A program made the translations under genes and the position numbers. From Fimbriimonadaceae bacterium (lineage in GTDB: Bacteria; Armatimonadota; Fimbriimonadia; Fimbriimonadales; Fimbriimonadaceae), in contig JAHBTD010000002.1 in assembly GCA_019638775.1 (NCBI GenBank), forward strand, positions 186,001 to 250,000: 64,000 nucleotides of DNA, given 5' to 3'. Numbering within the stretch: position 1 is the stretch's first letter; the number at the start of each line of letters is the position of its first letter. Below the pieces are notes generated by a model. That model was not told the DNA's origin, ran no database searches, and saw only the letters and a program-made list of their open reading frames with translations. Shown piece by piece: positions 41,856 through 58,257 of this stretch.

Positions 41856-42559
41856 TTCACCTTCCTGAGTTGAAGTCGCAGTTTCGGACGAACGGATTCT
41901 TCATCCAAGAAGGCGTCCTTTCGCCTGACGAAGTCCAAACCCTAACCGCCTGGACCGAAAGCTTCCTCGGCCACCGAAGCCCCGCCGGAGTGCGTAACCT
42001 CCTCGACGAGGAAGCCGTCCGCGCCCTAGTGCGCCACCCGTCCATCCGCAAGCTCGCCACAACCCTTCTCGGCGAAGGCGCATTTGCCGTCCGCGCCATC
42101 CTCTTCGACAAAAACCCGGAGAAGAATTGGGTCGTACCCTACCATCAGGACGTCTCCATCGCCGTCAAGAACCGCGCCGAAGCCGAAGGCTTTAAGACGT
42201 TTTCGGTGAAGGACGGAGTCCTGCACGTGCGCCCGCCTGCTTGGGTGTTGGAGTCGATGGCGACGCTCAGGATTCACCTGGATCCCTGCGGCCCGGACAA
42301 CGGCCCTGTCCGCATTCTGCCCCGAACGCACCGCAATGGCCTGCTCGACAAGGATGCGGTGAAGCATCTCCAAGAGGTGAGGGAAGAGGTTCTGTGCACC
42401 TGCGACGCGGGCGGAGTCCTGGCGATGTCGCCTCTGATCCTCCATGCCTCCTCCAAAGCCAGCAAGCCGGGGCACCGCCGCGTGATCCATATCGAATTTG
42501 CCGCGTTCGACCTTCCCGGTGGGTTAGAATGGCACGACCGGGTGAGGGTGCTTGATTGA
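41852..42559 (+). CDS. Phytanoyl-CoA dioxygenase family protein (PhyH)
   Basis: A 235-residue Fe(II)/2-oxoglutarate oxygenase. The facial triad is visible: HxD in VPYHQDVSIAVK and the distal His in RTHRNGLL or near ASKPGHRRVIHIEFA, with the following Arg binding 2-oxoglutarate. N terminus FRTNGFFIQEGVLSPDEV is typical. The substrate is unknown. ATG at 41852 gives the family start and the ATGA overlap with the macro gene; the stop overlaps the TTG of the next gene. Confidence 0.9.
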   Translation: MIHLPELKSQFRTNGFFIQEGVLSPDEVQTLTAWTESFLGHRSPAGVRNLLDEEAVRALVRHPSIRKLATTLLGEGAFAVRAILFDKNPEKNWVVPYHQDVSIAVKNRAEAEGFKTFSVKDGVLHVRPPAWVLESMATLRIHLDPCGPDNGPVRILPRTHRNGLLDKDAVKHLQEVREEVLCTCDAGGVLAMSPLILHASSKASKPGHRRVIHIEFAAFDLPGGLEWHDRVRVLD

Positions 42560-43512
42560 ATTCAGTCACAAGATTTATTAGAAGAAAAATCACGCACAAG
42601 TTGATGGATCGAGGCATTAAGGCGCTTCATAACTACGAATACGAAGAAGCCAATCGGATCGGGGATCGCTTGATCAAGAGACGTTTTACAGGCGGATATG
42701 AGGTCAAAGCGAGAGCACTGGCGGCCGACGACAGAACTCAGGAAGCTATCGTCATTCTCCGGGCTGGTCTGGATCTGGCTCCAACCAACTATATTTTGTG
42801 GAGCTATCTTGGCGAGTATGAGTCGAATTTAGGGAACCACCAAGAAGCGATTGCCGCATTCCGACGTCACGAAATGCTTGGTGGCGGAACCTTTTGGTCA
42901 CACCTCAATATCGGCATGATCTACGGTCGAATGGGTGAGTACGACTTGGGATTTCAGTTTATCGATGGGTTAGAACCCGACTCGGAAGAAGATGAGTTGA
43001 CCAAGACGAAGTCGAGGGCTTGGCTTATGGTTCATACCGAACAATACGCTGACCTTAACGCGCTCTGTAAGCAAGCGCTTCTCAGATTTCCAGACTGTGC
43101 GGAACTCTACGGTTACGCCGCCGTTGCGAGATTCGAGCATGACGACTCCGTTCAAGCTCGGGACTACGCCCTTGAGGCACTGGCACGTGACAAGACCGAC
43201 AACCTGGCGTCTCAAGTACTTCGAGCACTCCATGGCGTGGAGTCGCCGGGTTCCAGGTGCTTTGAAATCTTGGTCGAGGGCGTTAGGGAGTTTGAGAGAC
43301 GCCCCGGCAGAGTTGAGCGGTTGGGGTTTTTCGCCGTCTATTTTGTGAAGGCGGTTGATGAAGACGCGGCCCTTGACTTCGTCGGGCCATTCGAGCCCCG
43401 AGCGCAAGGCTCGCTGGCCGTTGCCAAGGCTGTCGCAACAGGGGAGAAAGTCGAGGGCCCGGACGGTGTCTACCGTGCCCGCGGCGGGTATTCGTTTTAT
43501 ACGCTGGACTAG
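42556..43512 (+). CDS. TPR protein, paralog 1
   Basis: A 318-residue soluble TPR protein: MDRGIKALHNYEYEEANRIG, TGGYEVKARALAADDRTQEA, ILWSYLGEYESNLGNHQEAI, WSHLNIGMIYGRMGEYDLGF. It shares this layout and many identical residues with the next gene, for example TGGYEVKARAL and LWSYLGEY. The last 90 residues form a separate alpha/beta-like domain (FFAVYFVKAVDEDAALDFVG) shared by both paralogs. TTG at 42556 overlaps the PhyH stop (TTGA); ATG at 42604 is possible. Function unknown. Confidence 0.8.
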   Translation: MNSVTRFIRRKITHKLMDRGIKALHNYEYEEANRIGDRLIKRRFTGGYEVKARALAADDRTQEAIVILRAGLDLAPTNYILWSYLGEYESNLGNHQEAIAAFRRHEMLGGGTFWSHLNIGMIYGRMGEYDLGFQFIDGLEPDSEEDELTKTKSRAWLMVHTEQYADLNALCKQALLRFPDCAELYGYAAVARFEHDDSVQARDYALEALARDKTDNLASQVLRALHGVESPGSRCFEILVEGVREFERRPGRVERLGFFAVYFVKAVDEDAALDFVGPFEPRAQGSLAVAKAVATGEKVEGPDGVYRARGGYSFYTLD

Positions 43513-43554
43513 AACTGAGTGCTTCAGAATGACAGGCATGACTGGTGTGAATGG

Positions 43555-44550
43555 ATGACGGCTTGGACTAGGGGGTGGCGCAATCATGTCACTCAGCGAC
43601 TCATGAAGCGTGGATTGGCCGCCTTGGATCGAGGAGATGCCGACATGGCCATCAAGACAGGTGACAAGCTTATTGCTCGTCACTATACGGGCGGTTACGA
43701 AGTCAAGGCACGGGCCCTTTATCAAAGTGGGGAGCCTGACCAAGCGATTAAAGTGCTGGAGTTGGGTGTCCAGAAGGCTCCTGGCATCTTCCTTTTGTGG
43801 AGCTACCTCGGTGAGTACTATTCCAACGTCAGGCGCTATCAGGATGCCATAGCGGCATTTCGCCGATCGGAGATGGCGGGCTGCAACCCGAACATGGCCC
43901 GTTATAACGTCGCCGTCGTTTACGCACGTGCAGGGGACGGAGCCGGTGCAGCGCAGTCCATTGAGGGCGTTGTGCCTGTGAGTGCTGATCATGAACATAA
44001 CATTGCTGGTGTTAAGTGTTGGGCAATGATTTTGGAAGCGTCCTGGGACGAGGCGATTGACTTCGCGCAGGATCGGCTGAAAAAGCATGAGGCACATAAA
44101 GATCTATTGGCATACGAAGCGTACGCTCGGATGAAGCTTGGGCAAAGTGAAGAAGCACTTAGATTGGCTTGGCAAGTCGTCGAATTGAGTGAACCCCAAG
44201 AGTACGCACTCGAAGTTATCCGGGAGATCACAGGCCGAAAATCGGAGGGCAGCAAGCGTTACCGACTGATGGTTGTCGGACGGCATTCGGTCCAGCACTC
44301 CAGCGGACCGATTCGCGACTTGCCCTTTATGCGTGTCTATTGGGTTCAAGCGGTATCGGTAGAGGAGGGGCTGGAGTATGTCCGACCCTTCGAAAAGGAG
44401 ACAATCGCCCCTTTGGCTGTCGAAGAAGCAGTTGAATTAGATGAACAGATCGGGGGAAATGACGGTGTTTACTCCTTTGACGAACATTATTTGGCGACCC
44501 TCGACCAGATTCCCCGCCAGTTGAGATCGAAAATGCGCCGAATTCAATGA
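43555..44550 (+). CDS. TPR protein, paralog 2
   Basis: A 331-residue tandem duplicate of the preceding gene: MKRGLAALDRGDADMAIKTG, TGGYEVKARALYQSGEPDQA, LWSYLGEYYSNVRRYQDAIA and the C-terminal domain (FMRVYWVQAVSVEEGLEYVR). ATG at 43555 aligns with the start of paralog 1; an upstream ATG at 43519 adds 12 residues of poor fit. The two have diverged well beyond recent duplication. Likely cytosolic scaffold proteins. Confidence 0.8.
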   Translation: MTAWTRGWRNHVTQRLMKRGLAALDRGDADMAIKTGDKLIARHYTGGYEVKARALYQSGEPDQAIKVLELGVQKAPGIFLLWSYLGEYYSNVRRYQDAIAAFRRSEMAGCNPNMARYNVAVVYARAGDGAGAAQSIEGVVPVSADHEHNIAGVKCWAMILEASWDEAIDFAQDRLKKHEAHKDLLAYEAYARMKLGQSEEALRLAWQVVELSEPQEYALEVIREITGRKSEGSKRYRLMVVGRHSVQHSSGPIRDLPFMRVYWVQAVSVEEGLEYVRPFEKETIAPLAVEEAVELDEQIGGNDGVYSFDEHYLATLDQIPRQLRSKMRRIQ

Positions 44551-44611: not shown

Positions 44612-46456
44612 ATGGTTGTGATCGTCGGCGCTGGATTTGCGGGGGTTGAGGCGGCTTGGGCCCTGGCTTCGCGTGGAGTGCCCGTGATCCTCTATGAGAT
44701 GCGACCCCAGCGCATGACCCCCGCCCACACCACCGACCATTTCGCCGAGCTCGTCTGCTCAAACTCCTTCAAATCCAAATCGCCAACCTCTCCAGCGGGC
44801 CAACTGAAAAAAGAAATGGAAGCGCTTGGGTCGATTGTGCTTGCGACGGCCTACGAGCACGAGGTTCCGGCGGGCGAGGCTCTGGGGGTGGATCGGGAGG
44901 CGTTCGGCGCGGCGATCACCAAGAAGCTGGAAGAGCACCCGCTGATCGAGATTCGCAGGGAAGAGTTCACGCCCGAAATGGCGGACGAGATTGTACAGGC
45001 ATTTTCCCCTCCCTCCATTTTTCCGGAAATGGAGGGAGGGGTTAGGGGAGGGAGGTCCAAAATCCAAAATCCAAAATGCTCCGCCCTAATCCTCGCCACC
45101 GGACCCCTCACCTCACCCGAAATGGCCGAATGGCTCGCCCAAATGTCCGACCGCCAGCATCTCTATTTCTATGATGCGGTCAGCCCCACCGTCGAGGCAT
45201 CCAGCCTGGATAGGAGCATCATCTTCGCCCAAAGCCGCTATGACAAAGGGGAGGGCGACGACTACCTGAACTGCCCGTTTAACAAGGAAGAGTACGAGGC
45301 GTTTGTGCGGGAGCTGGTCGCGGCGGAAAGAGCGCCGATCCACGCTTTCGAGGCTGGCGGAGTACGCGGCGACGCCGTGGTGGATGACGGGTATCGGTTG
45401 AAGAGTGATCGGCTAACGGCTATCGGCGATCAGCAATCATCAATCATCGATCAACAAGCTGAGGCCTTGTCAGAATCCCCTCCCCTTGAGGGGGAGGGCT
45501 GTGAACGGAGTGAACAGGGGAGGGGTGGGAACTCCACGGTCTCAGCTCACACGGCTAATGCCGACCTTGAAGAGCCCTCCGACAATCATCAATCGCCAAT
45601 CCACAATCCTCGCTCCGAGACCTTGTCAGAATCCCTTCCCCTTGAGGGGGAGGGCTGTGAACGAAGTGAACAGGGGAGGGGTGACCTCCCACCCCTAACC
45701 CCTCCCTCCATTTCCGGAAAAATGGAAGGAGGGGCATCCAATCCAAAATCCAAAATCGAAAACCCAAAATCCACCGAAGAGCGCTATCTCGAAAAGATCA
45801 AATACTTCGCCGGATGCACCCCGATCGAAGCCATCGCCGAAAAGGGCGCCCGCTCGCTGGCCTTTGGTAACTTCAAACCCGTCGGCCTCACCGACCCCCG
45901 CACAGGCCGCCGCCCTTGGGCCGCCCTCCAACTCCGCCCCGAGAACAAGGAAAAGACGCTCTACTCGCTGGTCGCCTGCCAAACACGCCTCAAGTGGGGC
46001 GAGCAAAAGCGCATCTTCCGGATGGTGCCGGGAATGGAAAACGCCGAGTTCGTCCGCTTCGGCGTCATCCACCGCAACACCTACATTGAAGCCCCTAAAA
46101 CCCTCAACGCGAACCTGGAGATGAAGGACGTCCCCGGACTCTTCATCGCCGGACAGCTCACCGGAGTCGAAGGCTATGTCGAAAGCGCAGCGATGGGCAT
46201 CTACGCCGGACTCTGCGTCCTGCAAAAGCTGGCAGGGAAGGAGCCCGCCATCCCGCCGCGCTCCTGCGCCTACGGCTCGCTGGTGTCGCACCTGCAAGAC
46301 GACACCGAGCGCGAGTTCGCCCCCATGAACATCAACTGGGGACTCTTTCCCGAACCCGAAACCCCCATCCGCGACAAGGGCCAAAAGCGGGCCTGGAAGC
46401 TGGAGCAGGCGAACAAGGTCTTTGAGAAGTGGTTTTTAGAGTACGGTACTGTGTAG
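44612..46456 (+). CDS. trmFO: TrmFO tRNA (uracil-54-C5) methyltransferase with repeat inserts
   Basis: A 614-residue FAD/folate-dependent tRNA m5U54 methyltransferase; the family is about 430-450 residues. Conserved parts are intact: VVIVGAGFAGVEAAWALA (FAD), AELVCSNSFKSKS with a catalytic Cys, ILATGPLTSPEMAEWL, LYFYDAVSPTVEAS, SRYDKGEGDDYLNCPF, FAGCTPIEAIAEKGARSLAF with the second Cys, PVGLTDPRTGRRPWAALQLR, FVRFGVIHRNTYIEAP and GQLTGVEGYVESAAMG. Two foreign blocks interrupt it without changing frame: about residues 131-158 and 266-387, made of G-rich palindromes and heptamer arrays. Ends of blocks fall in surface loops, so activity may persist. ATG at 44612 is chosen by family start and CATAAT spacing. 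Confidence 0.93.
   Translation: MVVIVGAGFAGVEAAWALASRGVPVILYEMRPQRMTPAHTTDHFAELVCSNSFKSKSPTSPAGQLKKEMEALGSIVLATAYEHEVPAGEALGVDREAFGAAITKKLEEHPLIEIRREEFTPEMADEIVQAFSPPSIFPEMEGGVRGGRSKIQNPKCSALILATGPLTSPEMAEWLAQMSDRQHLYFYDAVSPTVEASSLDRSIIFAQSRYDKGEGDDYLNCPFNKEEYEAFVRELVAAERAPIHAFEAGGVRGDAVVDDGYRLKSDRLTAIGDQQSSIIDQQAEALSESPPLEGEGCERSEQGRGGNSTVSAHTANADLEEPSDNHQSPIHNPRSETLSESLPLEGEGCERSEQGRGDLPPLTPPSISGKMEGGASNPKSKIENPKSTEERYLEKIKYFAGCTPIEAIAEKGARSLAFGNFKPVGLTDPRTGRRPWAALQLRPENKEKTLYSLVACQTRLKWGEQKRIFRMVPGMENAEFVRFGVIHRNTYIEAPKTLNANLEMKDVPGLFIAGQLTGVEGYVESAAMGIYAGLCVLQKLAGKEPAIPPRSCAYGSLVSHLQDDTEREFAPMNINWGLFPEPETPIRDKGQKRAWKLEQANKVFEKWFLEYGTV
45006..45077. repeat. In-gene insert 1 of trmFO: G-rich palindrome plus CCAAAAT heptamers
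   Basis: A perfect 15-bp stem (45006-45020 with 45027-45041), G-rich tail to 45055, then three CCAAAAT heptamers (45057-45077). Translated as part of TrmFO. Confidence 0.85.
45407..45455. repeat. In-gene heptamer array in trmFO
   Basis: Seven 7-mers: GATCGGC, TAACGGC, TATCGGC, GATCAGC, AATCATC, AATCATC, GATCAAC. The same kind as the intergenic arrays. Confidence 0.8.
45465..45527. repeat. 63-bp direct repeat in trmFO, copy 1
   Basis: CCTTGTCAGAATCCC followed by a G-rich palindrome and GTGAACGGAGTGAAC. It repeats at 45621-45683 with two mismatches, offset 156 bp (52 codons), giving the peptide LEGEGCERSEQGRG twice. Confidence 0.85.
45581..45608. repeat. In-gene heptamer array in trmFO
   Basis: Four 7-mers: GACAATC, ATCAATC, GCCAATC, CACAATC. 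Confidence 0.7.
45621..45683. repeat. 63-bp direct repeat in trmFO, copy 2
   Basis: Second copy of the element at 45465-45527; two substitutions only, which points to recent duplication or strong sequence constraint. Confidence 0.85.
45685..45771. repeat. In-gene insert of trmFO: inverted G-rich palindrome plus CAAAATC heptamers
   Basis: The 50-bp G-rich palindrome of insert 1 in the opposite orientation (stem 45699-45713 with 45720-45734), followed by five heptamers (TCCAATC, CAAAATC, CAAAATC, GAAAACC, CAAAATC). Confidence 0.85.
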
Positions 46457-58050: not shown

Positions 58051-58162
58051 GAGAGATCAGAAATCCGATATCCGATATCCGATATCCGATCTCCCATCTC
58101 CCATCTCGGATCGCCGATCTCCGATTTCTGATTTCTGACAACTGATCGCCAATAGCTGATAG
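58051..58162. repeat. Heptamer tandem array, 16 units
   Basis: Sixteen 7-mers in register, drifting from CCGATAT through CCCATCT and CTGATTT to CTGATAG. It starts 3 bp after the upstream stop codon. Confidence 0.9.
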
Positions 58163-58182
58163 CTGGAGCCAGTCTCACCCTC

Positions 58183-58257
58183 CCTGTTCACGCTTCGCTA
58201 TGAACTTCCCTCCCTCAGAGGGAGGGACGGTGAACGGAGTGAACCGAGGGCGGGTGG
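58183..58257. repeat. G-rich palindromic element related to the trmFO insert
   Basis: CCCTCCCTC / GAGGGAGGG stem around one base (58208-58226), flanked by GTTCAC and GTGAACGGAGTGAAC; the latter motif is shared with the 63-bp repeats inside trmFO. Confidence 0.65.

Follow-up and report, generated by a model that had tools for sequence, protein, structure and literature searches.

The gene trmFO and its two inserts

We will start with the gene trmFO, which codes for the FADH2/methylene-THF-dependent tRNA(U54)-C5-methyltransferase. It lies in the window, by which we mean the whole stretch of 64,000 nucleotides that was analysed (C2:186001-250000). The genome is a draft assembly of 4.31 Mb in 126 contigs with 3.96% contamination. 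Judging from its TrmFO relatives, this uncultured organism belongs to Fimbriimonadaceae, phylum Armatimonadota, and it is the sole species of its genus in our comparison set. The trmFO reading frame is intact, with 614 codons from the ATG at 44612 to the stop codon at 46454-46456. By its sequence the product is clearly a TrmFO equivalog: the NCBIfam model gives E 5e-171 and 569 bits, compared with a cut-off of 262, and its match is split in three stretches. Two adjacent paralogous TPR-like genes, at 42556-43512 and 43519-44550, are found directly 5' of trmFO; both contain the motif GGYEVKARAL. The features of the gene, together with an intergenic example from the same window, are as follows.

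44612-46456, plus strand: trmFO, 614 aa, with two in-frame inserts (from the open reading frame, the NCBIfam equivalog and the alignment to relatives)
45002-45079, plus strand: insert 1, residues ~131-156, preceding the conserved LILATGPLTS strand; without counterpart in 29 relatives and in structure 3g5q; AlphaFold2 pLDDT <50 at 136-154
45006-45057, plus strand: palindromic unit CCCCTCCCTCCATTTTTCCGGAAATGGAGGGAGGGG and its tail, inverted repeats I1 and I2
45056-45077, plus strand: heptamer array (TCCAAAA)n, n=3, peptide SKIQNPK
45404-45769, plus strand: insert 2, residues ~265-386, preceding TEERYLEKIKYF; without counterpart in relatives and in 3g5q; AlphaFold2 pLDDT <50 at 244-395
45410-45453, plus strand: degenerate heptamer array of the CAGCTAT / ATCAGCA type, inside insert 2
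45424-45527, plus strand: direct repeat D1, copy 1, 104 nt, which includes LSESPPLEGEGCERSEQGRG
45580-45683, plus strand: direct repeat D1, copy 2, 84% identical to copy 1 and 156 nt (52 codons) downstream
45683-45734, minus strand: the palindromic unit of 45006-45057 inverted, 96% complementary (I1), also open in frame
45740-45773, plus strand: heptamer array AATCCAA, peptide NPKSKIENPKS
58052-58244, no strand assigned: intergenic heptamer array AGAGATC with GTGAACGGAGTGAAC

The original prediction described this TrmFO as longer than its family, and this is what we find. We assembled 29 homologues of Fimbriimonadaceae from genome searches; they have ~447-490 residues, except for a few that are extended at the N or C terminus. 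The alignment, which had been proposed as a way to locate the insertion points, places the extra blocks at residues ~131-156 and ~265-386, and none of the 29 aligned homologues has a comparable block at either site. In the nearest genus (g7, three genomes, 80-84% identity in the matched stretches) there are 0-7 residues at the site of insert 2. The crystal structure of Thermus TrmFO (3g5q) falls into three pieces when aligned, and neither site holds anything similar. A pile-up of elements at one site had been supposed, but there are two sites, since the region 45006-45771 then delimited covers both blocks together with the ~325 conserved nt that separate them. Some relatives have long trmFO open frames (572-809 aa); where aligned, these correspond to N- or C-terminal read-through and not to inserts. 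The long-frame relatives G008, G036 and G022 were left out of the alignment.

The 52-nt unit at 45006-45057 is formed by a 36-nt palindrome and a GC-rich tail. It is open in frame both here and, inverted, at 45683, so the palindrome is tolerated in either orientation. The two 63-bp copies 52 codons apart that had been noticed earlier are present and are contained in the 104-nt direct repeat. The five other frames of insert 2 have 1, 10, 2, 6 and 5 stops and the true frame alone is open; intergenic windows of 348 nt centred on arrays are open in just 2.4% of frames. The longest composite unit, a 36-mer, is specific to trmFO and has two copies in the genome, while the dispersed parts are heptamers and shorter palindromes. 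Candidate insert-junction peptides, taken from the sequence, are LEGEGCERSEQGR, SEIGNR and SAIGDPIQNPK.

An AlphaFold2 model from 22 aligned sequences has pLDDT values below 50 in the two regions listed above and otherwise only at the C-terminal residues 570-572. Its top match among solved folds is Thermus TrmFO 3g5q (E 2.4e-40). With a mean pLDDT of 69 and a pTM of 0.64 the model is of moderate quality, and it should not be relied on for where exactly the loops lie. It predicts an intact core fold, with disorder confined to the inserts apart from the three C-terminal residues. The conserved trmFO sequence stays in frame on the outer sides of the two inserts as well as between them, as the original prediction had said of the catalytic motifs, and we infer that the repeat-bearing TrmFO is an intact functional enzyme.

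Period-7 arrays in the genome and in its relatives

We surveyed 2.04 Mb of this genome, 47% of the total, taken as stretches in which genes were located with a simple home-made codon-usage caller. The sample contains 137 arrays of period 7, compared with 2-17 arrays for each of the periods 4-6 and 8-12. Most of them (105) are intergenic, though spacers make up only ~10% of the sequence. An excess of period 7 over other periods and a location mostly between genes are also the features of STRR-type arrays. A 25-mer of the AATCCAA repeat, with up to 2 mismatches, has 110 matches in the genome, compared with 0-5 in 84 other genomes of the family; a control pattern has 0 matches in the window genome. 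The exact 22-mer has a punctate distribution among 291 Armatimonadota: 34 matches in the window genome, 33 in G116, 8 in G228, three more across two genomes and none elsewhere. G116 and G228 belong to families other than Fimbriimonadaceae. Other repeats were also observed. Long arrays of the heptamer CCCAACG (NAQHPTP / NAQRPTP) are found at or just upstream of gene starts at C1:623866 and C2:253306, and in the C1 sample (L038-L057) the 12-mer counts are led by CRISPR-like repeats, GTGGGGATGAACCG, with ~25 copies.

A search for other genes holding these elements had been proposed; in the 47% sample it gave at least nine genes with arrays including trmFO, and 13 when genes with palindromes only are added. 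In-frame arrays with coding signal on both flanks are found in miaB, argS (3 sites), metG, leuS, mutS, ubiD, glcD and a rhamnosidase-like gene. The genes with palindromes only are weaker cases: alaS (1152 aa) and those for a THUMP-like, a DUF2961 and a GH38/57-like protein. By comparison with sister genomes, MiaB is longer by ~141 residues, which follow its N-terminal part and precede the radical-SAM cysteines, and MutS has ~70 more immediately before the Walker A motif. The corresponding values are ~70 for GlcD, ~48 for UbiD and ~26 for MetG, in a linker. The arrays of ArgS and LeuS lie in loops which are variable among relatives as well. Three further loci are probably hosts: C3:509231, C1:1238413 and C4:79462, with heptad peptides in open frames of 712, 1005 and 879 aa.

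Some candidates were rejected. We judged that arrays at 5' ends (e.g. C1:718407, C1:623866, C2:253306, C1:631099 and C2:817609) probably reflect wrong start codons, and did not count them. Matches to CCCTTGAGGG or GAACGNAGTGA at C1:614244, C1:1046594, C1:1136095, C2:63530 and C2:831468 were dropped, as they look like ordinary coding sequence. We also observed that region ~228-371 of ArgS in the window genome has no counterpart in G006 and G002 and is matched in part in G051; it is not built of these repeats. At the loop which holds heptamers in the window genome, the LeuS of genus g7 (L278, L276, L279) contains a conserved insertion that is longer.

The nine array hosts contain 22 arrays; all of them have the strand sense that is free of stops, and their peptides are mostly hydrophilic. 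For most words this orientation is forced, because the opposite strand has stops. The word AATCCAA is open on both strands, and gives either the polar peptide NPKSKIQ or the hydrophobic one LDFGFWI. The polar sense is found in 8 of 8 arrays in genes, as against 3 of 11 in codirectional spacers (Fisher p 0.0034, 19 arrays). This bias suggests selection on the protein, although the numbers are small; mutational bias in transcribed DNA may be an alternative. On a given strand the same heptapeptide cycle is read in all three frames, because 7 is coprime with 3.

Repeats are also found in genes of other Armatimonadota. In genus g7 the same loops of ArgS, UbiD and MutS are occupied by other repeats. 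ArgS (L259) and UbiD of G035 have a common palindrome AACCCCCTTCTCCCC with peptide NPLLP.GEKGA, ArgS of G051 (L256) has the inverted arms GTAAAGGG/CCCCTTAC and MutS of the same genome has the inverted repeat GGAGCGGAGG. The ArgS loops of this genus (L256 in G051, L259 in G035, L258 in G006) were seen to hold other GC-rich repeats. G006 has its own period-7 arrays, CACCTAA, with 10 arrays in 400 kb, compared with 0-1 for other periods. One of its CACCTAA arrays is in frame in MnmG (L296:1671-3593, minus strand), just before VILTTGTFL; this position corresponds to that of insert 1 in TrmFO, to which MnmG is related. Heptad peptides in frame are also found in TrmD and RsmE of G054 (L346:1030-1944 and L355:1363-2130) and in UvrA of G228 (L347:1-2367): RNPKSVIRNPKS, SKIQNPESE and SKIQNPKSKI. 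The phenomenon thus appears to recur in at least three other Armatimonadota lineages.

Five of the nine array hosts (trmFO, miaB, argS, metG and leuS) act on tRNA, and alaS is a palindrome host. The probability of five by chance is 3e-7 to 1e-5 if 35-70 of the 1745 sampled genes act on tRNA, a background which is assumed, in a test made post hoc. These six genes, together with MnmG, TrmD and RsmE in relatives, have led us to a tentative idea, which we regard as rather unlikely: polar loops bearing lysine might be useful, or specially tolerated, in proteins for tRNA charging and modification, which would be preferred hosts, and intergenic heptamers might be a recurrent source, throughout the phylum, of disordered loops in the translation machinery.

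Origin of the inserts

We are confident that the extra part of TrmFO comes from repeat DNA of the intergenic kind, formed by 7-bp arrays and GC-rich palindromes, which entered a gene that already existed and was kept because its position is a surface loop and its frame is open. In at least nine enzymes, repeats of this kind lie in frame in surface loops, and very probably they are translated into floppy additional stretches of protein while the gene survives. Repeats from the spacers would get into genes time and again, but last only where they keep the frame and lie in a permissive loop, as disordered polar peptides. Heptamer arrays would be good colonists because of the relation between 7 and 3: their heptapeptide (AATCCAA giving NPKSKIQ) does not depend on the frame, and only the length of the array modulo 3 would have to fit. 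The least certain step is their spread. Replication slippage may be at work, or template switching from one repeat cluster to another, followed by selection, rather than a dedicated transposase; we favour these processes over a classical transposon because tandem arrays and palindromes are mixed, without fixed ends.

A family mobilised by a transposase, similar to MITE or REP/RAYT and inserting its units as is usually supposed for the Rickettsia palindromic elements, would account for the two orientations of the palindromic units and for the composite clusters that recur between genes. Genes of the Y1_Tnp type do exist, two in the window genome and more in genus g7, but there is no element within 2 kb of the one at C2:835 kb and none on the 3.3-kb locus that holds the second. 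The inserts vary in length and composition and no fixed ends are seen, although palindromes are present; their commonest component is a tandem array and not an element with terminal inverted repeats. We find this origin unlikely. G002, which has no Y1_Tnp and no sign of repeats in genes at the sites checked, is uninformative on the question of a transposase. We give about the same low credence to growth in place, by 7-bp slippage in loops that were already variable, with nothing arriving from the spacers. The three argS arrays and that of metG fit such growth, as they are short and found in variable linkers, and sister genera have period-7 arrays with different words (CACCTAA in G006). On the other hand the inserts of trmFO, miaB, ubiD and the rhamnosidase gene are composites of several heptamers with palindromes found in spacers, and the spacer word AATCCAA recurs in eight arrays across seven genes.

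Two other explanations concern the gene itself. The assembly is a draft, and an assembly chimera or a decayed pseudogene might then be thought of. This is very improbable: the conserved trmFO sequence continues in frame, without stops, on both sides of each insert, the only open frame of the composite insert 2 is the true one, similar inserts occur in at least nine genes and other repeats occupy the same loops in sister genera. Even less credible is the removal of the inserts after transcription or translation, as an intron, an intein or by bypass. An insert excised from the RNA would have no need of an open frame, while these are low-complexity repeats that stay open, and Pfam and NCBIfam scans of the full-length TrmFO found no intein or other extra domain.

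Relation to known repeat elements

Intergenic repeats that have colonised protein-coding genes and are translated are known above all from Rickettsiales; the case of Armatimonadota is apparently independent. The palindromic elements of Rickettsia and Wolbachia (RPE and WPE) occur in spacers, but also lie in frame within conserved genes that are unrelated to one another, and in this respect they are similar to those described here; the RPE have ~100-150 bp and some are located inside ORFs whose frame they leave intact (PMC3767692, PMC10969869). As with RPE, the repeats in the window genome are in frame in pre-existing conserved genes (trmFO, miaB, mutS, glcD and ubiD), with sites that are empty or shorter in sister genomes. 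An RPE or WPE may occupy one and the same site in orthologues, and here the same loop is also occupied in sister genera. However, an RPE is a single palindromic unit with a peptide specific of its family, whereas here we find variable heptamer arrays and palindromes of 20-50 bp. The heptapeptide arrays are independent of the frame, the same loop has different words in sister genera and the phylum is another one. Judging by the architecture of their units, the repeats described here would not be members of the RPE family. The parallel with Rickettsia drawn in the original prediction is accordingly maintained as a similar way of working in another phylum, Armatimonadota; it does not extend to the nature of the elements, whose core is a tandem heptamer with no mobilising enzyme linked to it.

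Heptamer arrays of the STRR type are found in cyanobacteria, TAACTGA in Beggiatoaceae and Microcystis (PMC4679880) and GGGAATC in Xanthomonas and Nostoc (PMC4692102). They have in common with those studied here the 7-bp unit, a mostly intergenic location, words specific of each lineage and a punctate distribution. For TAACTGA just one orientation is translatable, and a few arrays are found within ORFs of small hypothetical proteins (PMC4679880). In contrast with these reports, the arrays described here are found inside conserved core enzymes: aminoacyl-tRNA synthetases, tRNA-modification enzymes and MutS. In the open-access literature we found no report of heptamers inside core enzymes, no match for the peptide SKIQNPK and nothing relevant on tandem repeats in Fimbriimonas. 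PARCEL repeats form domains of 25 residues in ORFs without assigned function (PMC2996958), and the palindromes of nematomorphs are mitochondrial and coding (PMC6649704). Both resemble the present case in that repeat or palindromic DNA is translated in proteins there and very probably is here, but neither is an intergenic heptamer in the loops of housekeeping proteins.

A tandem heptamer can colonise genes without having to maintain a conserved coding frame itself. For annotation it should be kept in mind that such genomes will have inflated core proteins which are not errors. Here natural insertions are numerous and affect enzymes that are among the most conserved; sister genera have the sites empty, or have acquired repeats independently at the same loop. 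It is thus possible to ask which loops of aminoacyl-tRNA synthetases, of tRNA-modifying enzymes and of MutS are permissive. One can also ask whether protein chemistry chooses the orientation of the repeats and how new disordered segments are born from non-coding DNA.
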